From: a virus | IMG/VR virus record: IMGVR_UViG_3300048032_000906 | Span: 1 to 32,689 of that record | DNA: 32,689 nt | Strand: one strand, 5' to 3' | Notes under the pieces: generated by a model | What the model was told of the DNA's origin: nothing | Databases searched by the model: none | The model's input: the letters and a program-made list of their open reading frames with translations, nothing else | Made by a program: the position numbers and the translations under genes | Shown: one piece after another, positions 1,204 to 31,295 of the stretch | Layout: each line of letters begins with the position of its first letter | Position numbering within the stretch: the first letter of the stretch is position 1

Positions 1204-1229
1204 AAAGTTCGAAAAGTGACTTTTAAAAA

Positions 1230-1248
1230 GTGTAACTAACTTTATAAT
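1230..1248 (+). promoter_or_regulatory. GTGTAA element plus TATAAT upstream of the small head gene
   Basis: GTGTAA at 1230-1235 is followed by TATAAT at 1243-1248, 4 nt before the ATG at 1253. GTGTAA recurs before many transcription-unit starts in this window, and the same GTGTAA...TTATAATAG pair precedes the gene at 7180. A 6-bp inverted repeat (AAAAGT-G-ACTTTT, 1212-1224) lies just upstream. The promoter role is inferred from recurrence, not shown. Confidence 0.45.
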
Positions 1249-1252
1249 AGCT

Positions 1253-1408
1253 ATGCCAATACCAAAACCAGGAAAAAAGGAAGAACAAAAACAATTCATG
1301 TCTCGCTGCTTGGGCGACAAGATGATGAAAGAAGAATTTAAAGACATCAATCAGAGAATTGCGGTATGCATAACATCATTTAAAGAAAAGGACAAAAAAG
1401 ATGGCTAA
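1253..1408 (+). CDS. Small conserved phage protein (51 aa) between terminase and portal
   Basis: This 51-codon frame starts MPIPKPGKKEEQ and contains F-M-S-R-C, then E-E-F-K-D and Q-R-I-A-V-C. That pattern (MPxPK...F...C......EF.D..QR.AVC) is one I recognise from short phage proteins next to portal or protease genes, sometimes fused to the protease. No catalytic function is known to me. The two cysteines, about 20 residues apart in a lysine-rich protein, could bind metal, but that is speculation. Its stop overlaps the portal ATG (1401-1408), so translation is probably coupled. It has its own upstream GTGTAA element. The reality of the gene is supported by the motif, the overlap and the tight fit between neighbours. 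Confidence 0.75.
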   Translation: MPIPKPGKKEEQKQFMSRCLGDKMMKEEFKDINQRIAVCITSFKEKDKKDG

Positions 1409-3347
1409 AAGAAAATATACGAAAAAATCTAATTATTGGAATAAATTTCAAAAGGTTGCGCCACAATCATCGCAAGCACAAGAGATTGCCGAACCAGCAA
1501 CTGCTGGCGAGTCCTATCATACTTCCCTGGGGTCGTACAGCCGATCTGGTTCTGTGAGCAATCTATCATCATCAAACACATCCACAAGAATAAACAGATC
1601 TTCTGTTACGGCCCCGCTTAATAAGTTTAGTCAAATTCGTAGCGGGTTACTTCCTTACGAGATTTCTGGCGATGGAATTAACGTAAGAGAGGCTATTGAA
1701 CTCTGTCAAAAGGCTTATGCAAATGTTCCGATTTTTAGAAACACGATTGATATGATGTCAGAGTTCGCTAATGCGGAGGTTTATTTGGAGGGCGGAAACG
1801 CAACATCCAGAGAATTCTTCATGAAACTTTTTGACAGAATCAAACTGTGGGATTTGAAAGACCAATATTTTAGAGAATACTACAGAAGCGGAAACATCTT
1901 TCTATATAGACTTGATGGAAAGTTTGACCTTAATGACTTCAAGAAGTTTTCTAAAATTGTAGAGGGGACCCCGAAAGAAAATAAATTTCCGCTTAAGTAC
2001 ATTGTTTTAAATCCTTTTGAGATTGTTGCCAAGCGCAGTACTGTTTTTAGCACAAAGGATGGAGCGTATGCCAAAATTCTTTCTGAGTTTGATATGGAAA
2101 GACTTGCCAACCCTAAAAATGATTACGACAGGGCTGTGTTTGAGGCGTTGGATCCAGAAGATCAAAAATTAATTGAAGATGGCGCTTATTTTAAAGATGG
2201 TCTTAAAATTAACCTAGACAACGAAAGACTGGCATACAGCTTCTACAAAAAACAAGATTATGAACCGTTTTCTATTCCGTTTGGCTACCCTGTGCTTGAG
2301 GATATTAATGCCAAGATGGAAATGAAAAAAATGGATCAGGCGATAATGAGAACCGTAGAAAATGTAATTCTCATGATCACAATGGGAGCAGAACCAGATA
2401 AGGGCGGAATTAATGCAAACAATGTCAAGGCCATGCAAAAACTTTTCCAAAACGAATCGGTTGGTCGTGTTCTTGTTTCTGATTACACAACAAAGGCAGA
2501 TTTTGTCATACCAGACATTAACAAGGTTGTTGGCCCAGGAAAATATGAAGTCATTAATAAAGATATTAAAGAAGGATTACAAAACATTATTCTTAATGAA
2601 GACAAATATAGTGGCGCACAAATCAAAGCTCGCGTTTTCCTTGATAGACTTAAGGAAGCTCGTGAGGCATTTATCCATGATTTTCTTCAGCCAGAAATAC
2701 GTCGAATTGCCAAAGACTTAGGTTTTAGACAATATCCAACTGTTAAATTTAAAGATATTGACCTTCGTGACGAAACCCAACTTATGCGTGTGGCGACAAG
2801 GCTTATGGAGTTGGGCGTTATGACCGCAGAACAAGGTATGGATTTATTTCACACTGGAAGGTTTCCCCTTGCTGAAGAGCTAGAAGGAGCGCAAGAAAAG
2901 TTCGTGGAGCAAAGAGAAAAAGGTTACTTTAATCCAGTAGTTGGAGGAGTTCCGATGATTGAACCCGATGAAGAATCCAACGAGCAAAAAAAGAAGCCAG
3001 ATGGTGGAATGGCTGGAAGGCCAGAGGGTTCTAAGGATCAATTCTCAAGAGAAAGTATTCAAGGCACGATTTATGAAGTGGAAGCGCTGAGCTCTATCGC
3101 AAAAGAAAAAATGTTAGAAAAGCTTGATTCAGAATCATTAAGCGAAGATCAAGAAAAAATGCTGAGCAAGCTATGCGAATCTGTTGTTTGCGCTTCAGAA
3201 AAAGAAAATTGGCAGGAAACAATTATTTCTTGTGTAAATGATTTTGCGGAGATTGAAAGACTGGGAACCCTGAACGGTGTTTTTGAGATTTCAGACGCTC
3301 ATAAATTAGAAGTTTATCCATCAGCAATATTATATCACTCAAAATGA
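1401..3347 (+). CDS. Portal protein
   Basis: The portal forms the dodecameric ring at the head vertex through which DNA passes and onto which the terminase docks. The 648-aa length, the position right after terL and the content support the call. There is a low-complexity Ser/Thr/Gln-rich N-terminus (about residues 10-75), then a mixed alpha/beta core (about 80-530) with the portal-like stretch FRNTIDMMSEFANAEVYLEG and a later DRLKEAREAFIHDFLQPEIR. A charged C-terminal tail (about 530-648) contains GGMAGRPEGSKDQF and may face the head interior. The start ATG overlaps the preceding 51-aa gene by 8 nt and is preceded by an A/G-rich AAAGGACAAAAAAG. The stop overlaps the next start at 3344 (ATGA). 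Family assignment rests on composition, size and context. Confidence 0.85.
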   Translation: MAKRKYTKKSNYWNKFQKVAPQSSQAQEIAEPATAGESYHTSLGSYSRSGSVSNLSSSNTSTRINRSSVTAPLNKFSQIRSGLLPYEISGDGINVREAIELCQKAYANVPIFRNTIDMMSEFANAEVYLEGGNATSREFFMKLFDRIKLWDLKDQYFREYYRSGNIFLYRLDGKFDLNDFKKFSKIVEGTPKENKFPLKYIVLNPFEIVAKRSTVFSTKDGAYAKILSEFDMERLANPKNDYDRAVFEALDPEDQKLIEDGAYFKDGLKINLDNERLAYSFYKKQDYEPFSIPFGYPVLEDINAKMEMKKMDQAIMRTVENVILMITMGAEPDKGGINANNVKAMQKLFQNESVGRVLVSDYTTKADFVIPDINKVVGPGKYEVINKDIKEGLQNIILNEDKYSGAQIKARVFLDRLKEAREAFIHDFLQPEIRRIAKDLGFRQYPTVKFKDIDLRDETQLMRVATRLMELGVMTAEQGMDLFHTGRFPLAEELEGAQEKFVEQREKGYFNPVVGGVPMIEPDEESNEQKKKPDGGMAGRPEGSKDQFSRESIQGTIYEVEALSSIAKEKMLEKLDSESLSEDQEKMLSKLCESVVCASEKENWQETIISCVNDFAEIERLGTLNGVFEISDAHKLEVYPSAILYHSK

Positions 3348-3811
3348 AAGAAATCAAAAATCCCCTAGAAATGAGCGTAGACCGCTCCAACGGCAATATA
3401 GAGATATCTATTGCGAAAAAATATAGCAAAACTGAAGAAGCTATGTACAAGTCATACATGAATATTTGCTCTATGGATGACAAAGCCTTAGTTGATACTT
3501 CTGGTATGGACGAAGAGTCTACCGCCAAAAGCTGTGGAATGCAATACGATAAAATGAGGGCAATGATGAACGAAGTCGGAGAAGGGGGATTGACTGAAGA
3601 CCAAAAAAAGCTTCCCAAGCCTTTGCAAAAAGCCATTTTAGAAAAAATGAAAAAAGAAGGAAAGGCTTCCGAATCCGATGAAAAGAATTTCAAGCCTCAT
3701 ATGATGTATGATCCAAAAACTGGCAAAGGCTACGAAGCAAAAACCTACAAAGATCATATAGATATGAAAAAAATGGGCTATACCCATGAGAATTCCAAGA
3801 AGAATGCATAA
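3344..3811 (+). CDS. Small head-module protein of unknown function (155 aa)
   Basis: I do not recognise a named family. The protein is hydrophilic, rich in Lys, Met and Glu, with no membrane segment. It contains LPKPLQKAILEKMKKEGK mid-protein and ends with a compact motif (MMYDPKTGKGYEAKTYKDH, then a GY) that I associate with small conserved proteins of unknown function in phage head operons. Its ATG overlaps the portal stop (ATGA) and its end overlaps the protease start, so it is tightly embedded in the packaging/head operon. A role in head assembly is inferred only from position. It could be an assembly chaperone or a minor head protein; nothing in the sequence decides this. Confidence 0.65.
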   Translation: MKEIKNPLEMSVDRSNGNIEISIAKKYSKTEEAMYKSYMNICSMDDKALVDTSGMDEESTAKSCGMQYDKMRAMMNEVGEGGLTEDQKKLPKPLQKAILEKMKKEGKASESDEKNFKPHMMYDPKTGKGYEAKTYKDHIDMKKMGYTHENSKKNA

Positions 3812-5330
3812 GTACACAGCAAAATTCGATTTCGAAATTAAAGCCTGCGAAGAGATTTCAGGCATTAATGTAAGTAAGGCTAATATTGAAAATTTAAGAG
3901 AGTTGATACCAACCTCTGTAGATTTAGAAAAGAATATTGACTTGATGGGCGTGGCATTTAACGCTGCAGTTGTTAACGAGTTTAATAAGAATGGCGATGG
4001 GATTGATACAAAAACAGCAATCGATTCAGTTCAGCAGTTTATTCATAAACCAACAAATATCGAGCATAATAAGAAAAAGGTTGTTGGTCATATTGTAAAT
4101 GCTGGCTTTAGCGATTACTCTGATAGCTCTATCTTGATTAATGTTGATGAAAACGAAAAAGATGCGTTTAATATCGCTTTGGGTGCTGTGGTATATAAGA
4201 CCGTAGACAAAGAATTTTTTGAAATACTAGAGAAAAGCACCGACCCAAAAAACAAAATGCACAATACGGTTTCTGCGAGTTGGGAAATTGGGTTTAGCGA
4301 ATATAAAATCGCAGTAGGCAGTAAGAATCTCAAGGACGCAGAAATTATTTCTGATCCCGATCAAGTAAGGGAAATGAAAGGGATGCTGAGAGCCTTTGGA
4401 GGTAAAGGGAAGACCGAAGATGGTCGTCCAGTCTACCGACTCATCACTGGTCAAGTTTATCCCCTGGGCATAGGATTTACTATGAAGCCAGCTGCAAATG
4501 TTAAGGGTGTAATCAGTCAAGAGTACAAGCTAGATGAACCCAAAAACGAAAACTCTAATAAAGGGCAAGCATCACAATTAGAAAAAACGTCAAAGAAAAT
4601 TTCACAAAAATTAAAAAATACTGTAAACAATACTAAAATTATGGAACTAGAAACTCTACTATCAGAACTAAAAGACTCTCTTGCGGAAAAGAAATTTTCT
4701 GAAGAAGCGGTCGCTGGCATGACTTCGACATTTGCCGAAGCCATTAAACAAAAAGATGATGAGTACAAAGCTTCTCTTGAAGCTGCGGAACAAGAAAAGG
4801 CCGAAATCGCTTCTGCGAAAGAAGAGCTTCAAGCTTCCGTAGAATCTATCAAGGAAGAGCTTGGAGCTGCTCAAGAACGCATTGCTGAATTTGAAGCTGC
4901 AAAAAATGCTGAAGAAGCAGTCGCTCGTTTCAACGCTCGCATGGAAGAAATTGATTCTCTTTACGACCTAGAAGAAAGCGACAGCGCTTTCATTGCTGAA
5001 AAGATTAAAGGTCTTGACGACACTGAAGAATCTTTCGCTTCGTTTAAGAGCGAGCTCGAAGTTTTTTGGTCATCCAAAAATAAAGAAGCTAAAGCGAAAT
5101 TCGAAGAAGAAGTTAAGGCTCGCGTCGATGCAGAAATCGAAAGACGTCTGACTTCCCAAGCTTCCGAAGAAGAAGAAGAAAAAGAAGAAGAAGTCGATGT
5201 TGAAGAAGCTCTCGCGAATGCAGAGCAAACCAACGAAGAAATTCCTAACAATAACGAAGCTCAAGCTTCTGCAAAAACTTTGAAGGATAAGTTCGCTGCT
5301 GCTTTTAGTCGCGAAAATATTCTTGGATAA
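3804..5330 (+). CDS. Prohead protease with C-terminal scaffold domain
   Basis: The N-terminal ~235 residues form a prohead protease that would cleave scaffold and capsid protein during head maturation. Candidate catalytic residues are the His in KPTNIEHNKKKVVGH (about residue 88) and the Ser in TVSASWEIGF (about 157), the His/Ser order seen in phage prohead and herpesvirus-like proteases. The second half is a scaffold: from about residue 280 it is Glu/Lys/Ala-rich, predicted coiled coil, and ends with a strongly acidic run and a short basic tail. I chose ATG 3804 because it overlaps the previous stop (ATGCATAA) and has AAGAAG just upstream. ATG 3786, six codons earlier, is also open. The internal Met at 4641 probably gives a separate scaffold product. 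Confidence 0.8.
   Translation: MHKYTAKFDFEIKACEEISGINVSKANIENLRELIPTSVDLEKNIDLMGVAFNAAVVNEFNKNGDGIDTKTAIDSVQQFIHKPTNIEHNKKKVVGHIVNAGFSDYSDSSILINVDENEKDAFNIALGAVVYKTVDKEFFEILEKSTDPKNKMHNTVSASWEIGFSEYKIAVGSKNLKDAEIISDPDQVREMKGMLRAFGGKGKTEDGRPVYRLITGQVYPLGIGFTMKPAANVKGVISQEYKLDEPKNENSNKGQASQLEKTSKKISQKLKNTVNNTKIMELETLLSELKDSLAEKKFSEEAVAGMTSTFAEAIKQKDDEYKASLEAAEQEKAEIASAKEELQASVESIKEELGAAQERIAEFEAAKNAEEAVARFNARMEEIDSLYDLEESDSAFIAEKIKGLDDTEESFASFKSELEVFWSSKNKEAKAKFEEEVKARVDAEIERRLTSQASEEEEEKEEEVDVEEALANAEQTNEEIPNNNEAQASAKTLKDKFAAAFSRENILG
4620..4640 (+). promoter_or_regulatory. Putative internal promoter/leader for the scaffold
   Basis: ACTGTAAACAATACTAAAAT (4620-4639) sits inside the protease gene immediately before the internal ATG at 4641. 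Nineteen of its 20 bases match the box directly upstream of the tail-tube gene on the other strand (9672 down to 9653). A 20-nt near-identity at two start codons, one of them inside coding DNA, argues for a selected control element. Confidence 0.6.
4641..5330 (+). CDS. Scaffold protein made from an internal start (nested in the protease gene)
   Basis: This is a 229-codon product in the same frame as the protease, starting MELETLLSELKDSLAEKK. It is almost entirely charged helix (Glu, Lys, Ala), as expected of a scaffold that fills the prohead and is later removed by the protease. Nested protease/scaffold pairs are well known, for example lambda C/Nu3. Support here comes from the 20-nt box before the ATG shared with the tail-tube gene, and from a codon shift at this point: Arg switches from AGA/AGG towards CGT/CGC, and GCT and GAA dominate, like the neighbouring capsid genes. 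That fits much higher expression than the protease half. There is no Shine-Dalgarno sequence. Separate expression is inferred. Confidence 0.6.
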   Translation: MELETLLSELKDSLAEKKFSEEAVAGMTSTFAEAIKQKDDEYKASLEAAEQEKAEIASAKEELQASVESIKEELGAAQERIAEFEAAKNAEEAVARFNARMEEIDSLYDLEESDSAFIAEKIKGLDDTEESFASFKSELEVFWSSKNKEAKAKFEEEVKARVDAEIERRLTSQASEEEEEKEEEVDVEEALANAEQTNEEIPNNNEAQASAKTLKDKFAAAFSRENILG

Positions 5331-5364
5331 AATAAAAAAAACTAAATTTAACTAAAAAAAAATT

Positions 5365-5982
5365 ATGGCACTAAGATTACTTCCATTCAGACAGTATGAC
5401 GAGCAAGACGTTGTTAACGTTTTCGCTCTCCAAAACGCCGATGTTCTTGAGTCTACCACTGGTGACGGCAAGGGCTCTAACGGTGTTTTCGTCAAGGTCA
5501 CTGACGGTAACTTCGACCAAGATGTTATTACTTACGGTTCTAACAGCTATCTTGGTAAGACAGATTACCCTCACGTCGGTGGCGACATGTATCCTACCAA
5601 CCCTCTTGAAGTTGCTGCTGCTGCTTCTGGCGAAATCCCTCTTGGATTGACCCTGAATCAAACAGCAAAGACTGATGAGAATGGTGAGAAACTTCTTTAT
5701 AATGCAACCAAGAAAGAAGAGCTTCAAGCTGTTCTTCCTGGCCAAAGCGTTCCTGTCGCAACTAAAGGTATCTTTACCTTGAGCGCAAACGCTATCGAAG
5801 GTAACGCAGCTTCTGTGTTCACTATCGGAGATGGTTTTGAGGTTGCTGGTGATGGAACAGTTGGTCCTGCTACTGTAGGTTCTGCTGATTCGCTTGGTAT
5901 GGTTCTTGGAACTGGCTCGCGTACTTCTAACACTGTTACTGATCAGTTCGCTGGTGATTATGTTATTGTTAAACTTGGATAA
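5365..5982 (+). CDS. Head decoration-type structural protein
   Basis: This 205-aa protein lies between the scaffold and the major capsid gene, where capsid decoration or auxiliary proteins are usual. The sequence starts MALRLLPFRQYDEQDVVN, is rich in Gly, Thr and Val with many short beta-prone stretches, contains PLGLTLNQTAKTDENGEKLLY and ends with a beta-rich segment. No enzyme motif or membrane segment is seen. Codons are strongly biased (GCT, GGT, ACT, CGT), like the capsid gene, so it is probably abundant in the virion. The ATG follows an A-rich leader (ACTAAAAAAAAATTATGG) resembling the one before the internal scaffold start. There is no clear Shine-Dalgarno sequence. Capsid-binding function is inferred from position and expression signature. 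Confidence 0.65.
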   Translation: MALRLLPFRQYDEQDVVNVFALQNADVLESTTGDGKGSNGVFVKVTDGNFDQDVITYGSNSYLGKTDYPHVGGDMYPTNPLEVAAAASGEIPLGLTLNQTAKTDENGEKLLYNATKKEELQAVLPGQSVPVATKGIFTLSANAIEGNAASVFTIGDGFEVAGDGTVGPATVGSADSLGMVLGTGSRTSNTVTDQFAGDYVIVKLG

Positions 5983-5983
5983 C

Positions 5984-5992
5984 AAGAAAGGA
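5984..5992 (+). promoter_or_regulatory. Shine-Dalgarno-like site of the capsid gene
   Basis: AAGAAAGGA lies 10 nt before the ATG at 6003. It is one of the few purine-rich ribosome-binding sites in this window and fixes the capsid start. Confidence 0.6.
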
Positions 5993-6002
5993 ACTTTATA
6001 AT

Positions 6003-8512: not shown

Positions 8513-9649
8513 TTAGATGCTCGTACGCGCGTTTCCTAGAACGGTAGTAGTGTTTGATCCAGAGAAGAAAACGTTATTAACGTTATCATCTGGCCCACCA
8601 ATAGAAAGCGAGAAGGTAAGATCAACGGTCTTATTTGGACCAATGCTCGAACTGAATGATTCGCTATCTAGTTTGAGGTTTGTCATCTTGTAAGACGCCT
8701 TGGGAACACTGTTTGAATCCTTGAATGTAAATTCTAGGTCAGAGATGAATGAATCACCATTGATGATGCTGGTCAAAGCTCTAGTTTGAGTTTCAGAAAC
8801 GATTGCAGAAACAGATAAGGTTGGTGTGATTGGGAAATCAACAACACGAGCAAACGAGAAGCGGGTTCCAAGTCTGTCAATTGGTGTTCTACCAAGAGGG
8901 ATCGACATAGAAACGCTTTGTACGTGAGCGCCGCCTGCACCGTCGAGGTCGACAATAGTGCTGTTATCCGCATTTGCAAAAGACAGTGTGATATCTCCTG
9001 GGCGAAGGGCTGTAGGAATAGCTGCTCCAGTGCCTTCAGAGGCTGCAGGAAATCTTACGCCAGAATTCTGGGATGGGAGAATTGTTCCAGCTTCTGGATC
9101 GATACCAGCACCAGAGATTCCAGAGAAACCACCAGCACTACCACTAATACCAGCAGTAGCATTCATGTTCGTTCCCTCAAGAGAAACGCTGATAGTTGGG
9201 ATGCCACCTACAGAAGCCTCAAGAGAGTAGTCTGTTAGGAACGCATTACCTATACCAATTGTGCTATAGTCAGTCGATACTGTATTGAAATTAGCATCTA
9301 CGCCTTCTGGGGCTGTTAGGATATAAAAGTTGTTTCCACTTGTGGAGGAAATTTGTCCAGAGATAAAGCCAGCGTTGAAATTTGTGTCATTGGCAAAACC
9401 AAGAGCTTGTTCATTGAAGCCGTCTCCAAGATAATACGATGTATCAAACGACACTGTTGGGGACTCAAGAATGATAGCTTCAAGTCGAGAAAGCTGACCA
9501 AATTGATTAATATCTTGTCGTGTGATATTGAATGAATAATTCGCTGATTGTACTCTGCGAAGTTGGGCGTGTTCGTTGCTTCCAGTAGAATTTACTGTTT
9601 TGCTGGTGAACAGCGCGTCGGATTGATAAATAACTCTATTTTTAGCCAT
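8513..9649 (-). CDS. Major tail tube protein
   Basis: This 378-aa protein would polymerise into the tail tube. It is the last gene of a minus-strand block whose order (closure, completion, terminator-like, tube) is that of siphovirus necks. The sequence is beta-rich, Ser/Thr/Gly-heavy and low in Cys. It has an N-terminal tube-like segment (about 28-75), GIGNAFLTDYSLEASVGGIP in the middle, a Gly/Ser-rich loop (about 165-210, possibly an Ig-like insertion boundary) and SMSIPLGRTPIDRLG later. The same landmarks recur in the protein at 22226, so the two are paralogues. It has its own 20-nt upstream box and strong codon bias, as expected for hundreds of copies per virion. Confidence 0.75.
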   Translation of the reverse strand: MAKNRVIYQSDALFTSKTVNSTGSNEHAQLRRVQSANYSFNITRQDINQFGQLSRLEAIILESPTVSFDTSYYLGDGFNEQALGFANDTNFNAGFISGQISSTSGNNFYILTAPEGVDANFNTVSTDYSTIGIGNAFLTDYSLEASVGGIPTISVSLEGTNMNATAGISGSAGGFSGISGAGIDPEAGTILPSQNSGVRFPAASEGTGAAIPTALRPGDITLSFANADNSTIVDLDGAGGAHVQSVSMSIPLGRTPIDRLGTRFSFARVVDFPITPTLSVSAIVSETQTRALTSIINGDSFISDLEFTFKDSNSVPKASYKMTNLKLDSESFSSSIGPNKTVDLTFSLSIGGPDDNVNNVFFSGSNTTTVLGNARTSI

Positions 9650-13637: not shown

Positions 13638-16600
13638 ATGGCAAAGGCGAAAATACCAGTAGAGTTTGATCCAGTAATAACCTCCAAGGTCGATGCGGCA
13701 TTGGCTAGAATACAGTCAAAAGCGAAGGGTATTGATTTTGGTGGAGGGGCGAGGTCACTAGATAAATTATCTAGACCCTTAGGAAAGATAACAGGGCAAG
13801 CTGACGAATTCGAAAAATCACTTAATGCTTCTAATGCTCGTGTTTTGGCTTTCGGTGCCTCTGTCGCTGTTATAAATAAACTCTCACAAGCTTTCTCTGC
13901 TCTTATTGCCAATACGGTTAAAGTAGAAGCTACATTTGCGAAAATTAACACCATTCTTGGCGGAACTGATAAGCAGTTACGACAATTTGGAGATGGAATT
14001 TTTAAAGTGGCTCAAAAAACAGCTACCTCATTTGACGAAGTGTCTGAGGGTGCGCTGGAGCTAGCTAGACAGGGCCTCAGTGTCGAAGAATCTCTTTCTA
14101 GGGTAGAGACAGCATTGAAGCTTGTGCGAGTTGCTGGTGTCAGCTCAGAGCAAGCGGTGGCTGGTTTAACTGCAGCTATTAAAGGTTTCGAAGGTGCTGG
14201 TTTAACCGTTGCCGCTATTGGCGACAAGCTATCGGAAGTTGATACAAAATTTGCTGTATCTACTGAAGATTTAATTAATGGTCTTGAGCGAGCATCGGCA
14301 TCTGCTCGTGTAGCTGGCGTTTCGTTTGATGAATTGTTGGCGGTAGTAACAACCGTGCAAGAAAGAACTCAGCGCGGCGGTGCTGTTATTGGTAATGCTT
14401 TTAAAACAATTTTTGCTAGACTAGGTAGAACAGATACTTTATCAGCGCTAGAAGAGTTGGGTATTAATGTTCTAGATACACAAGGTAATGTTAGATCTGC
14501 TATTCCTTTATTTCAAGAATTAGCTGGAGAACTAAACAAGCTTGGACTAAAAAGCGTTGAGGCTGGAGATATTATCCAAAAGGTAGCTGGCGTCCGCCAA
14601 AGAGATATTTTAATTAGTTTGGTTGAGGATTTAAACTCTAGTCAAAGTCAATTTTCAAAAGCTTTACAAACTTCAGCAACTGCTGCTGGAGCATTGGATT
14701 CAAAAAATAATTCACTTAACCAAACCTTAGAAGCTTTAATAAATAATTTAACTGTCGGTGGGCAAAAACTGGCTTCAGTTTTAGGTGAATTGGGATTTAC
14801 TGATTCAGTTAAGGATATATTGAAAGTATTCTCGTCCGTGGTTAATGGTCTTAGTGATTTATTGCAAGGCGATTCGCTGGGGGCAAAGTTCGCTCAAGGG
14901 ATAGTGAAAGGTATAGGCGGTGTTTTAACTGGGCCAGGGCTCGCTTTGGTTGGAGCTATATTTATAAAATTGTTTGTAGATTTAGCTAAGTTTGGAGCTA
15001 AATCTCTTGCTAGTTTACTAGGAATCAATAAAGCCGCTCAACAGCAAGCCGCCTTGCAGCAGTCTGTTTTACAAACCCTGTTTCAGAACGAAAATATACA
15101 AAGAGAAATTTTAGCTCTTGAGGGCAATAAAGTTGCACAAGAACAACTTCTACTAAAAATTTACAACCAACAAGCTGCCGCCCTTGCTAGGGTTCAAAAA
15201 GCTGCCGCAACTGTAACTCCTACACTTTTTGGCGCTGGATTTCGTGGCGGGACAAGCGGCGTAGGAAAAACTGGAAGAGGTGCTAGTGGTTATGTAGCAG
15301 CTGAAGCTCGTGATGTATCTAGAGGAGTTGGTGGAGCGCCCACAAGCTCTAAGGTAGTCTCGATTCCAAACTTTGCTTTTGGTGGCGGTAAGCGGGGAAC
15401 AATGGTAGCAAATACAAGTGAGTATTTTGTTCCTAATTATGCTGGAGGTGGAGATGCTATATTTAATCAAAATATGGTTAAGGCTATGGGTCTTCCTGCT
15501 GGCGCTAAAAAAATAAATGCAGCTGGTGGTTTTATACCAAACTTTGCCGTTGCTCCTTCAGCATTCCAGGATTTCATGAGATCTAGGGGCATTACCCCAA
15601 GGCAATTAAGATCTACAAATTATGACTCAGCATATTCTGGAGGAAGATATAGGGAAGAGTTCGATTCACTTTCCCCTTTAGAACAAAGGAATATTTCAAA
15701 AACTGCTGCGCAAAGAGCGCAATTAAAAAGACAAAAAGGAGCGGGCGCAAAAGCTGAATTCGGAATAATGTATTCAGATGTTATTGGTGGCACTAAGGCT
15801 ACTAATTTACTTACTCCTGGGAAAAATACAATTAAAGCCATTCCCGTAGATACCGAACCGCCAAATAAACTATACAAAGATTTAAGAGATGGCATGGTAA
15901 AAAGCGCAGTCGTTTTTGCTCAAACTTTAGGATTTCAACCAGATATAATACAAGATAATAAATTTAAAAAAGCCGCAGACAAAAGTTTGAATCCAGGAGC
16001 CGTAGAGGGCGCATTTGGAACAGTATTTGAAGCGGCGTTCCAGGGCGCATTAGGAATATCGCAAAAATCAAATTCTATTTTTGATTTACCATCTGCGACG
16101 GCAATTAGTCAATTAGTAGCTAAAGGAAAAGCTGGAGGTATTATAGAAAGTATAGGCGGAAACCTTCTTGGGTTAAAAGCTGTAGATGTTAAAAATGCTT
16201 TAAATGTAGAGAATATTAAGAGCATTGACAACAAAATAAGAAACAGAAAAATGAAAAGGGGGGCTAGTGGATATATTCCCAACTTTGCTGGTGGAGCTTT
16301 AGATGAAGCTGTCGCAAGAGAGCAGGCTGCAGGTCTTCCAATAAATCAAATAAGAATCAATCAAAGTGGCAAACTACGTAACTCGCAAAACCCAATGGGT
16401 CTTGCTGTTACAAATACCAGAGATGAGCCAACTGGAGCTATTCCAAATTTTGCTAAAAGAGGTGCAGGAGGGGCCGAGGAATCTATAAATAAATTTTCGA
16501 GTGCTGCACTAGGAGCATCTACTAGTTTATTTTTCTTAAGCTCTGCTTTTAGTGGGGCTGAAAGTGGGGTTGGAAAGTTTATAAGTGAGCTGACTTTGGC

Positions 16601-18932
16601 TGCATCATTATTGAGTGGATTAAGCTTATTAAAAGGACCGCTTGAAAATGTTGGGGCTAAGTTATCTAGTTTCGGCACAGAGTTGTCTACCTTTCGTAGT
16701 CCGAGGACGGGTGGAATAATGAGGGGTTCAGAGGGTAAACTGAGAGGAGCTAGGGGTAGTCTGGGCAGAGGTATAGCTGGAGTTGGTAGAGCTTTGCCAG
16801 GAATTGGGACTGCTGTAGCTATCGGCGCTGTAGTTGCGCCGCTTGTTTTAGAATTAACAAAAACAAAAACAGGATTTGAGAAACTAAACGAATCAATTAA
16901 AAATATTGATTTGGGAGAGTTATCAGCTGGATCAAAAGAAGCTTCCGCCTCTTTGAAGTCTGCTTTCGCCGCAGAGGTAAAAAGGGCGAACGAAAGAGCT
17001 CAACTTACAAAAAAATTAGGTGTTGAAGAGGATGCAAATATAAAAGATATAATCGACGCACAATTAAAAGGGTTAACTGGAATTGATAGAGGATTTTTTG
17101 GAGGAGTAAAAGATAAGGAAACATTAAGTGCGTCTTTAGCAAAGATTGGAGACAAAAATGTCTTACAAAGCATAATACTGGATAGTCAAACAAAAACTGA
17201 CAGAAACCTTCAAGATGAGTTTGGAAGTGTTATTGAAGGGGCATTTGAGGTTGAGTTTGATCCAGTTTTATTTGCGAAAAATATGATCATAGCTATCGAC
17301 AAAATAGATGCCGCTGCTAAAAAAGCCGCCGAAACTGCATTAATAACTGAAGCTGGTTTTGGAGAAGGAGCAGTGACTGGAGCTACAGCGAAAAGAAGAT
17401 TTAAAGAAAGCATAGATCAAGGAAAATTTGCAGCTGCTGGATTTGGAGAAGGTGGACCAAAATCTGCCATAAGAGAAAAGGAGCTTGAGTTAGCTAAAGC
17501 TGTAACAACTACAAGAAAAATAGGTCTAGAAAATGAGATAGCTTTAAAGAAATTTCTAGTAGAAAAAGCTGAAGAAGAATTCAGAATCACAGAAGATTAC
17601 GTAAAATCAATCAAAGATTCTAGTGTGTTCTCGGCAAAGCAAAAAGAATTTATAGATGGCAGGGTTAAGTCGGGCCGTGATTTATTGTCGATCGAATTGG
17701 ATTTACAAAAATTAGGAATTGAATTAACGGGACAAGCTAAGACCGATTTTGATCTTGCTGTAGGTAAGGCAGAAAATCAAAGAAAGGTATTAAAAGATAA
17801 GTATGAAGAAATAAAATTACAACAAGAAATAAACAATCTTAACAAACCGCAAGGATTTGGTGAGGGAATAAGGAAGGGTCTTGGTAATTTAGAGAACGAT
17901 ATAGCTTTCTTTGGTGATGAGTTGGGTGAAAATATACCAATTCAATTTAGTGATAATTTAGGATCCGCTATGCAAGAGGCTGTTAGCGGGGCGAAAGATT
18001 TAGATGACGCCTTATCCGACGCTGGAAGAAACTTTTTAGGATTTATAAGAGATGCGTTTTTACAACAAGCTGCAAGTCAACTTACATCTGGTATATTCGG
18101 AAGCTCAACAGGCCAAGGAGGTTTGTTTGGTGGAGGTTCTGCTGCGGCCGATGGTGGCTTATTTGGGGGAATAAAAAGTTTATTTGGCGGAAAAAGTGGC
18201 GCATCTTCACCAGACGGAACTCCAACAAACCCAATATATACAGCAAGCTCTGCTTCAGGTACTAATCCAGTTGATGCTTTAACTGGAGGAGAAAAAGGAG
18301 AGGGAATTTTTGCGAAACTAAAAAGCACTCTAACTGATTCGTTTGGGACTCTTAAAACTACTTTTTCTGATTTATTTGGATCACTAAAGGATAACTTTGC
18401 AAGTATTTTTAAAAACCTCACAAGTAATTTAAGTAACTTGTTCACTAGCGGCGGAGGCGGCGGAGGCGGCGGCGGGTTTTTTCGGACAGTATTAGGTGCT
18501 TTTGGTTTTGGTTTTGCAAATGGGGGTCCAGTTGGTTTTGCGAACGGAGGTTCTGTAGGATCAACCGACACAGTTCCAGCGATGCTAACTCCTGGTGAGT
18601 TTGTGATGAAAAAATCTGCGGTCGAAAAGTATGGATCTGGATTCTTGTCGAGTATAAACGAAGGGGTCATGCCTATGCGCGGATTTCAAAACGGAGGTGT
18701 TGTCGGCCCAGTATCCGCTGAAGCTGGCACAGGTTATAGTGTAGGATCTCCAACAACAAACAATTCAGATTTTACTTTTAATATTCAAGATGGCACAGCG
18801 GAGCAAACGGGCGGGCAGAACAACACAGATCAACAGCGAGAATTCGCGCAGAAGGTTAAGGCTGCGGTCACTACGGTTGTCCAAGAGGAATCCAGAACTG
18901 GTGGAACACTGAGCTACTTATATAAAAAATAA
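13638..18932 (+). CDS. Tail tape measure protein with nuclease-like insert
   Basis: This 1764-aa protein sets tail length and fills the tube. The N-terminal ~400 residues are the TP901/PhageMin tail core (NARVLAFGASVAVINKLSQA, then GGTDKQLRQFGDGIFKVAQK). Hydrophobic segments lie near 431-455 and 1050-1075. Five IPNFA-type motifs occur at residues 576, 598, 633, 880 and 935. Between the third and fourth lies a segment with E798, D816 and D850-x-K852, spaced as in PD-(D/E)XK nucleases. A poly-Gly run near 1604 and DTVPAMLTPGEFVMKK near the C-terminus are typical of tape measures. The start is fixed by GTGTAA 8 nt upstream. The stop abuts the next ATG. Tape-measure identity is firm; the nuclease reading is inference. 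Confidence 0.92.
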   Translation: MAKAKIPVEFDPVITSKVDAALARIQSKAKGIDFGGGARSLDKLSRPLGKITGQADEFEKSLNASNARVLAFGASVAVINKLSQAFSALIANTVKVEATFAKINTILGGTDKQLRQFGDGIFKVAQKTATSFDEVSEGALELARQGLSVEESLSRVETALKLVRVAGVSSEQAVAGLTAAIKGFEGAGLTVAAIGDKLSEVDTKFAVSTEDLINGLERASASARVAGVSFDELLAVVTTVQERTQRGGAVIGNAFKTIFARLGRTDTLSALEELGINVLDTQGNVRSAIPLFQELAGELNKLGLKSVEAGDIIQKVAGVRQRDILISLVEDLNSSQSQFSKALQTSATAAGALDSKNNSLNQTLEALINNLTVGGQKLASVLGELGFTDSVKDILKVFSSVVNGLSDLLQGDSLGAKFAQGIVKGIGGVLTGPGLALVGAIFIKLFVDLAKFGAKSLASLLGINKAAQQQAALQQSVLQTLFQNENIQREILALEGNKVAQEQLLLKIYNQQAAALARVQKAAATVTPTLFGAGFRGGTSGVGKTGRGASGYVAAEARDVSRGVGGAPTSSKVVSIPNFAFGGGKRGTMVANTSEYFVPNYAGGGDAIFNQNMVKAMGLPAGAKKINAAGGFIPNFAVAPSAFQDFMRSRGITPRQLRSTNYDSAYSGGRYREEFDSLSPLEQRNISKTAAQRAQLKRQKGAGAKAEFGIMYSDVIGGTKATNLLTPGKNTIKAIPVDTEPPNKLYKDLRDGMVKSAVVFAQTLGFQPDIIQDNKFKKAADKSLNPGAVEGAFGTVFEAAFQGALGISQKSNSIFDLPSATAISQLVAKGKAGGIIESIGGNLLGLKAVDVKNALNVENIKSIDNKIRNRKMKRGASGYIPNFAGGALDEAVAREQAAGLPINQIRINQSGKLRNSQNPMGLAVTNTRDEPTGAIPNFAKRGAGGAEESINKFSSAALGASTSLFFLSSAFSGAESGVGKFISELTLAASLLSGLSLLKGPLENVGAKLSSFGTELSTFRSPRTGGIMRGSEGKLRGARGSLGRGIAGVGRALPGIGTAVAIGAVVAPLVLELTKTKTGFEKLNESIKNIDLGELSAGSKEASASLKSAFAAEVKRANERAQLTKKLGVEEDANIKDIIDAQLKGLTGIDRGFFGGVKDKETLSASLAKIGDKNVLQSIILDSQTKTDRNLQDEFGSVIEGAFEVEFDPVLFAKNMIIAIDKIDAAAKKAAETALITEAGFGEGAVTGATAKRRFKESIDQGKFAAAGFGEGGPKSAIREKELELAKAVTTTRKIGLENEIALKKFLVEKAEEEFRITEDYVKSIKDSSVFSAKQKEFIDGRVKSGRDLLSIELDLQKLGIELTGQAKTDFDLAVGKAENQRKVLKDKYEEIKLQQEINNLNKPQGFGEGIRKGLGNLENDIAFFGDELGENIPIQFSDNLGSAMQEAVSGAKDLDDALSDAGRNFLGFIRDAFLQQAASQLTSGIFGSSTGQGGLFGGGSAAADGGLFGGIKSLFGGKSGASSPDGTPTNPIYTASSASGTNPVDALTGGEKGEGIFAKLKSTLTDSFGTLKTTFSDLFGSLKDNFASIFKNLTSNLSNLFTSGGGGGGGGGFFRTVLGAFGFGFANGGPVGFANGGSVGSTDTVPAMLTPGEFVMKKSAVEKYGSGFLSSINEGVMPMRGFQNGGVVGPVSAEAGTGYSVGSPTTNNSDFTFNIQDGTAEQTGGQNNTDQQREFAQKVKAAVTTVVQEESRTGGTLSYLYKK

Positions 18933-21900
18933 ATGACTGATTCTATAAACAGATACGACAGGGATCACAATATAGATGGACCCGTTTTGCCGTTCACTTT
19001 TGTACCAGAATATGGCTCAACGGTGTCTTTTGAAAATAAAAATGTCCATTTTAATGCAGCGGACAATTATTATAAAAAATTCTCAAAAGGAGTAAATGGA
19101 ACTAATATAAAGCTTAATTTAAAGTTTTCCAATAAAACAGAAGATGAGGCTAGGTCTTTTTTACATTTTATAGAAACCGTTCTTGATACTGATAAAAATT
19201 ATCTTGACTTTAATTCATTGACTCCTAGTGGGGTAGAAATAGCTTTTCCAACTGGCTCTATATACAAAAATATAGACGAACTATTTATAGAAAATTACGA
19301 CTTTAAGTTCCATAATGGGCTTTTTGATATAGATTTAAATTTATCAAAAAATGGGTATTCTTCACTTTTTGATTGGAGCGGCTCTTCTTATTTAAATGCT
19401 GCTAATTTTTATACTGGATGGGATACTGGTATTAATTATAAAGAGTTCGACGTAATTTTCTACTCAGGTTATGCCGAGCAAATTTCAAGTGATTTTCAAA
19501 CTGGAAATTATTATAGAATAGCTGATAGGAGAGAAAATTTTTATTACTGCTTGTCTGGTCATACATCTGAATATACAAACAGCCCTACTGGTTCGAACTC
19601 ACACTGGTCAAAATCTTTTTTTTACGAAATAGATGATGATATATCTATAGGCTCCGATAGGTCTAATAATATTTTTGACCTAAAAGATTCGTTTTCTTCT
19701 TTTATTAAACAAGACCAAAATGGTGGGTTAATAAAAGATTTATCTTTATCTTTAAAAAATAGATCGGATAAAGAAGCTAGATCCATTATTCATTTTATAG
19801 AAAAGCATGAAGATTATAGGCCACTTGAGTTAACATTGCCCCAGCTATATAATAAGAAGAAGTTCTTTGTAGTAAAATCTTTTGAGCACAAGTTTGTATA
19901 TAAAGATTGCAACGATTTAGATATAGTTCTAGATGAAATATTTTTATTTAAGAAACCTGGTCTTTTCGATAACTATAGAGGTAATTCAGATAGTAATGAA
20001 TTTATAATGAACATCTCAACTACAGCACCTAATCAGCAAATAGTAATTTCTGGGGAAAATGAAGATGGAAACGATGTAAAAATTGGATGGGGAGATGGGC
20101 AAATAGTAACCATTACTGGGTACAACGATCCTGATTTAACTCACCTATATACGGGTGTTGGAGATTATCAAATAAGAATAAGTGGTTATATGCCAAATAT
20201 AGCTTTGCCTATTGCTAGCGACAAAACAAAAGTTACATCGATTGATCAGCTTGGAATTATGGGTTGGACCGATATGAGTAATTCATTTTTTGGTTTTTCA
20301 AACATGACTTCGTTTAAAGCGGGAAACACGGATACTTCTTTGGTAGCTAATATGGAAGGAATGTTTCGAGATTGCTATGCTTTGACGGGGATAGATTTGA
20401 GTAGCATCAACTCTTCTAGCGTTACTGGCATGCAGGATATGTTTACAAACTGTGAGCGTTTAACTGGACTAGATTTATCTAGCTTTAATACATCTTTGGT
20501 AGCCGACATGTCTGAAATGTTTTATGGTTGTTACGATTTAACTAGACTAAATTTATCTAGTTTCAACACTGCCTCAGTTGAAGATATGACTCGAATGTTT
20601 AAAAATTGTGGGGATTTAACTGTACTAGATTTATCTAATTTTGATACTTCTTCGGTTGTAGGTATGCACGGCATGTTTGATTCCTGCTATCAAATGAATA
20701 CATTAAATGTTTCTGGTTTTGATACATCTTTGGTTGCTGATATGAGTTTTATGTTCTCGGATTGTCAAGATGTGTCAGGATTAGATTTGTTCAGCTTTAG
20801 CGCTGAGTCGGCTCTTAATATGAGTAGTATGTTTGAAAATTGCTTTTTGTTGACTGGTTTAAGTGATTTAAATTTTAGCCCATCTGTTGTTACTGGTACG
20901 TCTAAAATGTTTGAAAATTGTGGGGATTTAACTGTACTAGATTTATCTAATTTTGATACTTCTTCGGTCACCGACATGTCTGAAATGTTTCATGGTTGCC
21001 AAAATCTATCGAATTTGAATTTATCTAATTTTAATACTGCCTCGGTTGAAGATATGACTCAGATGTTTCGTAATTGCCAAAATATATTCGTTTTGGATTT
21101 ATCTAGCTTTAATACGTCTTTGGTAGCCGACATGTCTGAAATGTTTTATGGTTGTTACGATTTAAGTGTACTAAATTTATCTAGTTTCAACACCGCCTCA
21201 GTTGAAGATACGACTCAGATGTTTCGTAATTGCCAAAGTCTATTGGCTTTAGATTTATCTAGTTTCAACACCGCCTCGGTTGTTAGCATGAGTCAGATGT
21301 TTTATGGTTGCTACAATTTAAGTGAACTAAATTTATCTAGTTTTAATACGCCTTCTGTAACCACATTTTATGAAACATTCCGTGATTGTTCTCAGCTGAC
21401 TGGGCTAGACCTGTCTTCCTTTGACACATCTTCCGCTACTACTATGCAAAGAATGTTTTATAATTGCCAAAGTATATTGGATTTGGATTTATCTAGCTTT
21501 AATACATCTTTGGTTAACGACATGTCTGAAATGTTTCGTCGCTGTTTCGATTTAACTGGACTAAATTTATCTAGTTTCAACACTGTCTCAGTTGAAGATA
21601 TGACTCGGATGTTTGATAGTTGTAAGGATTTAAGTGGACTAGATTTATCTAATTTTAACACTGCCTCGGTTGAGGATATGACTCAGATGTTTTATATTTG
21701 CCAGCATTTAACTGGACTAGATTTATCTAGTTTTAATACCGCCTCGGTTGTTAGCATGAATCAGATGTTTTATGATTGTGAGGATTTAACTGGACTAAAT
21801 TTATCTAGTTTTAATACGTCTTCTGTAACCTCATTTTATCAAACATTCCGTGATTGTTCCCAGCTGACTGGACTGGATCTGTCTTCCTTTGACACATCTT

Positions 21901-22205
21901 CCGCCACTACCATGCAAAGAATGTTTTATAGAGATTCATCGCTAGTAGATATAATTGGCGTGGATAAATTTAATGTAGAGTCTTGTGTATCAAGTAATAG
22001 TTTATCTCAATTTGCCTTTAATGTAACGTTACCAACCTTTCGTTATGATTCTTTGTTAACGGGGTGGAATTCTCAAAGTGTAGCAAATGGAATCGATGCT
22101 CATTTTGGTAATAGCCAATACACTCTTGGTAGTGCGGCCGATGCAGCAAGAACTAATCTAACTGGCGTGTACTTTTGGAATATCACTGATGGAGGCCCTG
22201 TGTAA
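18933..22205 (+). CDS. Tail-tip adhesin with BspA/DUF285 leucine-rich repeats
   Basis: This 1090-aa protein is probably a tail-tip receptor-binding subunit. N-terminally it has two related tail modules (about 25-150 and 255-350), marked by DEARSFLHFIE and KEARSIIHFIE. Between them is a carbohydrate-binding-like segment (Trp/Tyr-rich, ending in SNSHW). A PKD-like domain follows at about 355-430 (GWGDG, then HLYTGVGDYQIRISG). Residues ~442-1000 hold about 21 repeats of 26 residues with consensus C..L..LDLSSFNT..V..MS.MF, i.e. DUF285/BspA surface-protein repeats. The last ~90 residues (GNSQYTLGSAADAAR, W.I.DGG) are the usual end of such proteins. It starts directly at the tape-measure stop (TAA then ATG), so translation is likely coupled. 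Receptor binding is inferred. Confidence 0.8.
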   Translation: MTDSINRYDRDHNIDGPVLPFTFVPEYGSTVSFENKNVHFNAADNYYKKFSKGVNGTNIKLNLKFSNKTEDEARSFLHFIETVLDTDKNYLDFNSLTPSGVEIAFPTGSIYKNIDELFIENYDFKFHNGLFDIDLNLSKNGYSSLFDWSGSSYLNAANFYTGWDTGINYKEFDVIFYSGYAEQISSDFQTGNYYRIADRRENFYYCLSGHTSEYTNSPTGSNSHWSKSFFYEIDDDISIGSDRSNNIFDLKDSFSSFIKQDQNGGLIKDLSLSLKNRSDKEARSIIHFIEKHEDYRPLELTLPQLYNKKKFFVVKSFEHKFVYKDCNDLDIVLDEIFLFKKPGLFDNYRGNSDSNEFIMNISTTAPNQQIVISGENEDGNDVKIGWGDGQIVTITGYNDPDLTHLYTGVGDYQIRISGYMPNIALPIASDKTKVTSIDQLGIMGWTDMSNSFFGFSNMTSFKAGNTDTSLVANMEGMFRDCYALTGIDLSSINSSSVTGMQDMFTNCERLTGLDLSSFNTSLVADMSEMFYGCYDLTRLNLSSFNTASVEDMTRMFKNCGDLTVLDLSNFDTSSVVGMHGMFDSCYQMNTLNVSGFDTSLVADMSFMFSDCQDVSGLDLFSFSAESALNMSSMFENCFLLTGLSDLNFSPSVVTGTSKMFENCGDLTVLDLSNFDTSSVTDMSEMFHGCQNLSNLNLSNFNTASVEDMTQMFRNCQNIFVLDLSSFNTSLVADMSEMFYGCYDLSVLNLSSFNTASVEDTTQMFRNCQSLLALDLSSFNTASVVSMSQMFYGCYNLSELNLSSFNTPSVTTFYETFRDCSQLTGLDLSSFDTSSATTMQRMFYNCQSILDLDLSSFNTSLVNDMSEMFRRCFDLTGLNLSSFNTVSVEDMTRMFDSCKDLSGLDLSNFNTASVEDMTQMFYICQHLTGLDLSSFNTASVVSMNQMFYDCEDLTGLNLSSFNTSSVTSFYQTFRDCSQLTGLDLSSFDTSSATTMQRMFYRDSSLVDIIGVDKFNVESCVSSNSLSQFAFNVTLPTFRYDSLLTGWNSQSVANGIDAHFGNSQYTLGSAADAARTNLTGVYFWNITDGGPV
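20258..21935 (+). repeat. Tandem 78-bp coding repeats (DUF285 leucine-rich repeats)
   Basis: About 21 imperfect copies of a 78-bp unit encode the DUF285 repeat array. Units differ at the exposed positions but share LDLSSFNT and MF..C. The segments 21273-21462 and 21741-21930 are unusually similar and lie exactly 468 bp (six units) apart, pointing to block duplication within the array. Confidence 0.85.
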
Positions 22206-28533: not shown

Positions 28534-30186
28534 ATGAATAATAAACCATATTACTGGCTAAATAAAGACTCTCGCACCTTTTTGAAACGTGGGTACCTAG
28601 AAGAGGGTCAGACCCCCGAAGAAAGAATCAAGCAGATTGCGGAGTCAGCTCAAAAAACACTTGGAATTCCAGGTTTTGCAGATAAGTTTGTAGAATACAT
28701 GTCTAAGGGTTTCTACAGTCTTTCTAGTCCTATCTGGGCCAACTTTGGTCTAAAGAGAGGTCTACCGATTTCTTGTTTTGGTTCTTATGTGGACGACACT
28801 ATGGAAGCTATCCTCAGTAAAGGGTCAGAAGTCGGCATGATGACGAAGGGTGGAGGCGGAACCTCTGGATATTTTGGAGACCTCAGAGAGCGTGGCGCTG
28901 AAATATCAAGTGGCGGCAAATCAAATGGCCCCGTTCATTTTCTTGAGATCTTTGAAACTGTAGCTAATGTTGTTTCACAAAGTAACGTTAGGCGCGGAAG
29001 CTTTGCGGCTTACATGCCCGTTGAGCATCTAGATATTTTAGAATTTCTAGAAATTCGAAGTGACGGACACGAAATTCAAAACTTGTCAATTGGCGTGACC
29101 ATTGGAGACGATTGGATGAAAGAGATGCTTGCAGGTGACAAAGAAAAACGTAAGATTTGGGGATGCATCGTAAAGAAGCGCTTTGAAAGCGGATATCCTT
29201 ATATCTTCTTTTCGGACGCCATGAACAACAATGCTCCGCAAGTCTACAAAGATAAGGGATTAAAAATCCACGCAAGTAATCTTTGCTCTGAAATTGCGCT
29301 TCACTCAAATCCAGATGAATCTTTTGTATGCAACCTTTCTTCTATGAATTTGGTTGAATATGACCAATGGAAAGAGACTGACGCTCCAGAAACTCTAACT
29401 ATGTTTCTAGATGCAGTCATGACAGAATTTATACAAAAATGTAAAAAAATACCATTTATGGATGCTCCAGCAAAATTCGCTGAAAAACAAAGAGCTCTTG
29501 GTATTGGTGTTCTCGGCTGGCACTCTTTGCTTCAATCTAAAAATATAGCTTTTGAATCAATGCAGGCCAAATTTCTTAATTCTGAGATACATAAACTTAT
29601 CTATGAAAAGACGCAGAACGCTTCTAAACAAATGGCTCAAGTATATGGAGAGCCAGAAGTATTAAAAGGATATGGCTTAAGAAATGTGACTACCATGGCT
29701 ATAGCGCCGACCACATCAAGCTCCTTCATCCTTGGCCAAGTCTCTCCAAGCATTGAACCACTGAATTCAAACTACTTTGTAAAAGACTTAGCTAAGGGTA
29801 AATTTACCTACAAAAACCCATATTTAGAAAAAGTTCTAGAAAAATATGAAAAAAATGATGCGACAACATGGAAAAGCATTTTGGTTAAAGGGGGATCAGT
29901 CCAACACCTTAAATTTCTTTCTGACGACGAAAAATCGGTTTATAAGACCTTTGGAGAAATCAGCCAAAAAGAAGTGATTATCCAAGCGGCTCAGCGCCAA
30001 AAATTCATCGACCAGTCTCAAAGTCTCAATATTATGGTTCATCCCAAGTCGTCTCCTAAAGACGTCAGCCAACTGATGATTTTCGCCTGGGAACAGGGAG
30101 TTAAAAGCCTTTATTATCAAAGAGGTACAAACCCATCTCAAGAGCTAAGCAGGAATTTGCTAGAATGTTCATCTTGCTCTGGTTAA
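28534..30186 (+). CDS. nrdA: Ribonucleotide reductase alpha subunit (class I, short NrdA)
   Basis: This is the catalytic subunit that reduces ribonucleotides. Active-site residues are present: C81 and C266 as the redox pair, N249-x-C251-x-E253 with the thiyl Cys, Y527-Y528 for the radical path, and the C-terminal C545-x-x-C548 shuttle ending the protein. A loop GGGGTSGYFGDLRERGAEI and SNVRRGSFAAYMPVEH are typical of the barrel. At 550 aa it is much shorter than E. coli NrdA (about 760). The N-terminal ATP-cone that senses dATP is missing, so the enzyme probably escapes that feedback, a common phage feature. Start ATG 28534 follows the 77-aa gene closely. No frameshift is seen. Confidence 0.93.
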   Translation: MNNKPYYWLNKDSRTFLKRGYLEEGQTPEERIKQIAESAQKTLGIPGFADKFVEYMSKGFYSLSSPIWANFGLKRGLPISCFGSYVDDTMEAILSKGSEVGMMTKGGGGTSGYFGDLRERGAEISSGGKSNGPVHFLEIFETVANVVSQSNVRRGSFAAYMPVEHLDILEFLEIRSDGHEIQNLSIGVTIGDDWMKEMLAGDKEKRKIWGCIVKKRFESGYPYIFFSDAMNNNAPQVYKDKGLKIHASNLCSEIALHSNPDESFVCNLSSMNLVEYDQWKETDAPETLTMFLDAVMTEFIQKCKKIPFMDAPAKFAEKQRALGIGVLGWHSLLQSKNIAFESMQAKFLNSEIHKLIYEKTQNASKQMAQVYGEPEVLKGYGLRNVTTMAIAPTTSSSFILGQVSPSIEPLNSNYFVKDLAKGKFTYKNPYLEKVLEKYEKNDATTWKSILVKGGSVQHLKFLSDDEKSVYKTFGEISQKEVIIQAAQRQKFIDQSQSLNIMVHPKSSPKDVSQLMIFAWEQGVKSLYYQRGTNPSQELSRNLLECSSCSG

Positions 30187-30956: not shown

Positions 30957-31295
30957 ATGGCAGCAGGAGTACACAATATAATAATCGAAAAAAGAGCTAC
31001 TTTTTCAATTACTCTAACTATAAAAAATGAAGACGGAAGCGCTTATGATCTTTCTAATGCGACCTTAGTTTCTCAAATCAGAATAGATAGCTCTAATAAT
31101 CTACAAGCAGATTTTACTACTACTGTGGTTGGAGACGCCACAAATGGAGTAGCTACTCTTTCTCTTACAAAAACTCAAACCTCGGCGCTATCTACCGCAA
31201 ATAGCTCTTACGATCTATTTGTAGATAAAACCGATGGAACCTCCGAAAAACTTTTAAAAGGCTCCGTGTCTATTATTGAAAATGAAACAGCATGA
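30957..31295 (+). CDS. Small Ig-like/BppU-type virion protein (112 aa)
   Basis: The sequence MAAGVHNIIIEKRATFSITL, then SAYDLSNATLVSQIRID, SYDLFVDKTDGT and a final strand reads as a small beta-sandwich. It resembles the N-terminal domain of baseplate upper proteins (BppU type) and short virion proteins placed before fibres in aquatic phages. It likely links the tail fibre to the baseplate or tail tip. Its stop overlaps the fibre ATG (ATGA at 31292-31295), so the two are translated together, which supports a direct structural partnership. No catalytic residues are present. The family call is by pattern only. Confidence 0.6.
   Translation: MAAGVHNIIIEKRATFSITLTIKNEDGSAYDLSNATLVSQIRIDSSNNLQADFTTTVVGDATNGVATLSLTKTQTSALSTANSSYDLFVDKTDGTSEKLLKGSVSIIENETA

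Follow-up and report, generated by a model that had tools for sequence, protein, structure and literature searches.

The first gene after the tape measure gene in an incomplete 32.7 kb (32,689 nt) metagenomic virus contig, IMG/VR record IMGVR_UViG_3300048032_000906, which was analyzed over its whole length and is referred to as the window, encodes a two-domain tail protein to which a long array of DUF285/BspA-type leucine-rich repeats is fused. The array is an exchangeable add-on, and compact and extended forms of this one distal tail protein are found in related phages. On the analysis as a whole, it is probable that the array belongs to an adhesin cassette that is held on the distal tail ring for binding to the host surface. 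The features of the window on which this reading is built are as follows.

13638..18932, + strand: tape measure protein, 1764 aa (PF10145, E 3.4e-27; phrog_4211, E 1.8e-43)
18933..22205, + strand: tail-tip protein with DUF285 array, 1090 aa (open reading frame with ATG start)
18987..19358, + strand: core domain 1 (about aa 19-142), gpM/tail-tube-like beta-alpha-beta fold (weak PF05939 match, structure model)
19395..19607, + strand: linker between the core domains (about aa 155-225), earlier described as carbohydrate-binding-like (CBM_5_12, E 0.37)
19608..19952, + strand: core domain 2 (aa 226-340), gpM-like, duplicate of domain 1 (lambda tail-tip structure match, hhalign)
19992..20222, + strand: PKD-like beta-sandwich (aa 354-430), start of the cassette (PF00801, E 0.027, below cut-off)
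20223..20360, + strand: N-terminal solenoid cap (aa 431-476), conserved with the related contigs L008 and L009 and with Salinibacter
20361..21998, + strand: 21 DUF285/BspA-type leucine-rich repeats (aa 477-1022) (PF03382, repeat register, TRF, model)
21999..22202, + strand: C-terminal cap (aa 1023-1090) of the YDSLLTGW...WNITDGG type (Salinibacter and Zobellviridae phage matches)
22226..23347, + strand: next gene, 373 aa, paralogue of the putative tail tube protein at 8513-9649 (- strand) (24.7% identity, E 2.5e-11)

The stop codon of the tape measure gene directly abuts the start codon of the tip gene (junction TAAATG), which is the gene order of gpM-type tail-tip genes. The placement of tail modules directly after the tape measure, proposed in the initial annotation, was thereby confirmed, given the PF10145 and phrog_4211 matches upstream and the lambda/T1 tail-tip fold described below. 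No signal-peptide-like or membrane segment was seen in the tip protein in a hydropathy test, used in place of a dedicated predictor (highest 19-residue hydropathy 1.02), and a Pfam search returned no sorting domain. The lack of a signal peptide or membrane segment fits a virion protein, unlike a secreted adhesin. It is accordingly very improbable that the protein is non-virion cargo, host-expressed or secreted, which is merely located in the tail operon; in other phages a DUF285 gene can lie a long way from the tail genes (Campylobacter CPt10) or beside the terminase gene (Zobellviridae phage KZY1), but here the array is fused to a conserved two-domain tail fold that abuts the tape measure. 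Searches of 50,697 phage records with the core and with the terminase gave 0 matches, so that there is no cultured relative among them, and the tape measure had no relative in 84,980 bacterial and archaeal genomes.

The N-terminal part of the tip protein was compared to tail proteins by both sequence and structure. Phage_min_tail (PF05939, the lambda gpM family) matched residues 21-81 of the window protein at E 4e-4 and 21.1 bits, below the cut-off of 39. Stronger matches were obtained in relatives for domain 1 (L035, 4.2e-9; L008, 1.4e-5) as well as for domain 2 (L026, 1.3e-8; L031, 3.2e-8; L038, 2e-7), the best score among them being 37.2 bits, which like that of every other member tested lies under the curated cut-off. 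Alignment of the two domains with hhalign gave an E value of 2.3e-7 at a probability of 93.5. In an AlphaFold2 model of the core, built from 11 family sequences at a mean pLDDT of only 64.8, the order strand-helix-strand-strand occurs twice (E57-68, H70-85, E117-127 and E130-141 in domain 1). Domain 2 of the model aligned to lambda tail-tip chain 8iyk_E with Z 10.1 over 97 of 109 residues, the core model to the T1 tail tip (9l9p_H) with Z 8.2, and both domains together to the JBD30 baseplate with Z 9.4 (210 aligned, residues 21-340). The tail-tube-like beta-sandwich flanked by one helix, which is the gpM-type feature, is thus found in the core through its likeness to 8iyk_E and 9l9p_H. Hub-type proteins (VgrG and the gp27-like tail protein 3d37) followed at Z 6-7, a level that may reflect a common arrangement only. 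The tail-tip matches came from this second structural search; Foldseek with the core returned nothing under E 0.001, SPP1 Dit (2x8k) appearing at E 0.066, and a search with the core profile against the sequences of solved structures gave no match. The resemblance of the N-terminal part to tail-tip proteins, which had been suggested from the sequence alone, is therefore upheld by PF05939 in relatives and by the structural matches, and the model supports assignment of residues 1-347 as a distal tail ring protein of two tandem fused gpM-like domains.

Lambda gpM shares the fold and the place after the tape measure (PMC10721106). It is however a single domain of 109 residues (PMC10721106), whereas the window protein has two fused domains and add-ons and a Pfam score below cut-off. 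A carbohydrate-binding-like segment had also been annotated, and this did not hold; CBM_5_12 was rejected for the linker (about residues 155-235) as it matched at E 0.37 only, and because the segment is also present in orthologues that have no array it is part of the core.

The PKD-like segment with which the cassette begins (about residues 354-430) has a WGDG...H.Y..G.Y motif, a predicted beta-sandwich and structural matches to beta-sandwich proteins at Z about 7; the PKD-like domain named in the initial annotation is consequently plausible on motif and predicted fold, while its Pfam match (PF00801) stays below cut-off. The annotated count of about 21 DUF285 copies proved accurate. PF03382 (DUF285) matched the window protein at E 1.8e-110 and 363.7 bits against a cut-off of 25, and the repeats stand in register as 21 units of exactly 26 aa with the consensus MFxxCxxLxxLxLSxFxTSxVxDMxx, a cysteine being kept, one per repeat, in 20 of the 21. 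At the DNA level TRF reported periods of 78, 156 and 234 bp. Positional entropies showed tandem repeats with conserved hydrophobic and variable polar positions, as is characteristic of BspA-type leucine-rich repeats, and the array is acidic with a net charge of -47 over 546 residues. A separate model of residues 343-1090 (mean pLDDT 75.5) gave a leucine-rich repeat solenoid, for which the closest solved structures were two BspA-type proteins from the cell surface of gut bacteria, 4gt6 (Z 14.8) and 4fd0 (Z 13.3).

The core and the tape measure were each used to scan IMG/VR for relatives, in which the gene immediately downstream of the tape measure was then compared. Six complete genes (L010, L011, L026, L029, L033 and L035) encode a compact form of 344-348 aa that consists of the core only, and the extended tip proteins of the family range from 663 to 1433 aa. 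L008 (1143 aa) and L009 (1302 aa) share the core, the PKD-like segment and the C-terminal cap with the window and have about 23 and 29 repeats, respectively. In L032 (663 aa) the C-terminal extension is of another kind, and in L031, L034 and L038 (1001, 1224 and 1433 aa) roughly 410-760 aa are inserted near the N-terminus and a further 200-480 aa in the linker between the core domains. The N-terminal insertions of these three are mutually related (22-27% identity and a 41-aa stretch at 44%), and no Pfam match was found in the insertion pieces tested (L031 and L038 N-terminal, L034 middle). The tip gene has three ports for added modules, namely N-terminal, between the core domains and C-terminal, and the DUF285 cassette is one of the modules that fill them. 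The earlier proposal of a swappable module is borne out, since orthologues either end at residue 344-348 or bear other modules. For L010 and L011, two phages with the compact form, the records (112.8 and 86.9 kb) contained no DUF285 at any position, although they may themselves be incomplete.

As the window is a metagenomic contig, the fusion might have arisen during assembly as a chimera of bacterial and phage sequence. This is hardly conceivable and was rejected, since the fusion occurs independently with different arrays in L008 and L009, with conserved genes on both flanks. In a tree of tape measures the window, L008 and L009 formed one group together with L012 (support 99/98), the tip gene of L012 being cut by the contig end; a single gain of the cassette is therefore the simplest reading for the three DUF285 phages. 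The L012 tape measure (628-5997) is 91-97% identical to those of L008 and L009 over most of the first thousand columns, but its end (85-89%) and the first 81 residues of its tip gene (from 6001; 86% vs 70%) are closer to L010 and L011. This sequence pattern suggests that L012 is a mosaic in which the tip gene was exchanged between the DUF285 and compact lineages.

A mechanism can be proposed on this basis. The two-domain core would dock at the tail end just below the tube and, with two gpM-like copies per chain, either three chains would close a pseudo-hexameric ring or six would form two rings stacked on each other. To the C-terminus of this protein a complete bacterial surface-adhesin cassette has been added in one phage clade, made up of the PKD-like stalk, the 21-turn DUF285 solenoid and the C-terminal cap. 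The tip protein would in this way be part of the virion, and three to six solenoids would stand out around the tail tip and attach to the surface of the host cell at adsorption, the array serving as an accessory or as the main receptor-binding element. Since most family members have no extension here, the array cannot be the sole means of binding in the family, and another fibre, possibly encoded outside the incomplete record, may be the primary receptor-binding protein. The grip of the array would be retuned by point change, by gain or loss of repeats or by replacement of the whole module.

Turnover of the array was investigated by comparison of L008 with L009. Their cores share 96% amino acid identity (dS 0.09), the PKD-like segments 79% (dS 0.30) and the C-terminal caps 87%, while the arrays, which differ in length, are 63% identical with 157 gapped codons and a dS of 0.69 that is subject to an uncertain repeat alignment. 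The higher dS in the added part suggests recombination or repeat turnover beyond selection alone. Within the window array, recent duplicate repeats were compared, with structural and variable positions picked from L008 and L009. The dN/dS ratio was 0.07-0.21 at positions conserved in these relatives and 0.94-1.03 at positions variable there, a contrast which indicates that the scaffold is kept and that outer residues are free to change. A ratio of about 1 could be produced by either relaxed constraint or diversifying selection. No case is made for positive selection, as the dN/dS of 1.27 obtained from positions chosen within the same array is circular and independent choice gave the 0.94-1.03 above. 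In the window 16 of its 21 repeats, and in L009 22 of 28, were closest to a repeat of their own array, but in L008 this held for only 3 of 23, and homogenisation of every array within its phage was for that reason dismissed as a general process. Conservation of the repeat scaffold alongside fast change in exposed residues and repeat number would allow the grip to be retuned.

The same data bear on the possibility that the array has no binding role and is a repeat decoration or spacer which spreads as a mobile, self-duplicating element, as in the PARCEL idea. Horizontal transfer and shuffling within genomes have been proposed as the ways in which DUF285 repeats spread (PMC2996958), and both the dN/dS near 1 at variable positions and the difference in repeat number between close relatives agree with such an element. 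We nevertheless regard it as quite unlikely, given the strong purifying selection at structural positions, the retention of both caps and a reading frame that is unbroken in all three phages, which come from at least two metagenomes. The dyad symmetry of PARCEL DNA (PMC2996958) was furthermore not seen, the fold energy, a rough proxy for palindromes, being no lower than that of synonymous shuffles (z -0.65).

The origin of the cassette was examined through its flanking parts. Of its length from the PKD-like segment to the C-terminal cap, 99% can be aligned with a plasmid-borne BspA surface protein of Salinibacter ruber (pSR35, SRU_RS15030), with 38% identity (E 7e-15) between the PKD-like part and the Salinibacter N-terminus and 36% (E 1e-11) between the C-terminal cap and the equivalent Salinibacter position; the cap is also 42% identical to a Zobellviridae phage protein. 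The Salinibacter protein has the same order of PKD-like N-terminal cap, DUF285 array and a YDxLLxGW...WTINDGG C-terminal cap, but is secreted, carries a sorting domain at its C-terminus (weak PF18962 match) and lacks the tail core. In the Zobellviridae phage, KZY1 ORF63 carries the PKD-like/DUF285/C-cap cassette, with the differences that there is only a short N-terminal adapter, that the array is shorter and that the gene adjoins the terminase. Capture from a bacterial surface gene, as first surmised, is likely because the cassette aligns end to end with the Salinibacter surface protein, and the simplest reading of the alignments is that a whole bacterial adhesin cassette was captured, possibly via other phages. 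The donor itself was not found, the PKD-like segment having no relative in 84,980 bacterial and archaeal genomes. A bacterial adhesin cassette would thus be reused as a viral tail part.

The use of DUF285 at phage tails had been called uncommon, and this was contradicted by wider searches. DUF285-like arrays were present in 122 of 50,697 phage records and in 116 IMG/VR stretches, many of them adjoining tail genes, and two other clear fusions to tail domains were found, namely Tail_P2_I with Big_2 and a BspA-type array in Klebsiella phage ST16-OXA48phi5.4 and DUF285 with Phage Tail Collar in L119. The Klebsiella P2-like protein (QBP07953; MK416015 23679-26705, equal to L050 4846-7872) is annotated just as tail protein and has a long BspA-type array. 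It resembles the window protein as an independent fusion of a tail baseplate domain to BspA-type repeats, and differs from it in the gpI core of a contractile tail, the Big_2 linker and longer, irregular LRR_5-type repeats in which DUF285 reaches only E 9.5e-8. Very large DUF285 proteins of 2658-3927 aa with 47-67 repeat matches, some of which run off the locus, were observed in L098, L102, L095 and L060, and these likely represent a different use of the repeats. Only the window, L008 and L009 showed DUF285 joined to a gpM-type ring protein, and the open-licence literature yielded no paper on a distal tail protein with DUF285 fused to it. As far as these tools show, this fusion and the family-wide swap hotspot are new.

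In function the nearest counterpart of the tip protein is the evolved Dit found in siphophages that infect lactic acid bacteria. This is a distal tail protein to which a carbohydrate-binding module (CBM) has been added, and for which binding to host cells has been shown (PMC6669499). Both proteins are distal tail ring proteins with compact and extended forms and an exchangeable surface-binding module. They differ in that the CBM is inserted into Dit, whereas in the window a 21-repeat solenoid lies C-terminal to a duplicated gpM-like core and would bind by analogy. If so, the evolved-Dit principle would be extended from carbohydrate-binding modules to leucine-rich repeats. The array, though carried on the tail tip, could alternatively be an environmental adhesin, one that tethers virions to particles, mucus or algal polymer in the habitat of the hosts and does not contact a host receptor. 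In favour of this, DUF285/BspA proteins are mainly familiar as surface proteins that bind a broad range of ligands, most of the family can do without the extensions, and the array itself is strongly acidic. This alternative is unlikely, as a position on the distal ring, not on the capsid, favours contact with cells and host-binding modules usually sit at the tail tip, for example the CBMs of evolved Dit (PMC6669499).

Host-surface binding by the cassette is the reading we prefer, and it can be widened to the family. Tentatively, and as something possible more than expected, the first gene after the tape measure may be a general docking platform, in which a duplicated gpM ring exchanges unrelated surface-binding modules at three ports and the leucine-rich repeat array of one clade, by rapid turnover of its length and exposed residues, provides a quickly retunable surface for host recognition. 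Phages of no cultured host usually come without a clue to their receptor-binding part, and here comparison of sister genomes with and without the module singles out this protein and the part of it that is likely to contact the host.

Some further observations were made in the neighbouring genes. The gene after the tip gene is a second hotspot of extension, its product reaching 818-1023 aa in L026 (17053-19518), L031 (18456-20912) and L032 (10320-13391). A small protein at 30957-31295 (+ strand) has a weak match to an LtfC-like beta-sandwich (PF23926, E 2.6e-5), and 3' of it lies a possible fibre gene that runs off the end of the window. The large subunit of a ribonucleotide reductase (28534-30186, + strand) is closest to those of Agrobacterium, Sinorhizobium, Rhodobacter and Ruegeria phages at 58-64% identity, and this sequence likeness to alphaproteobacterial phages may be a weak hint to the host.
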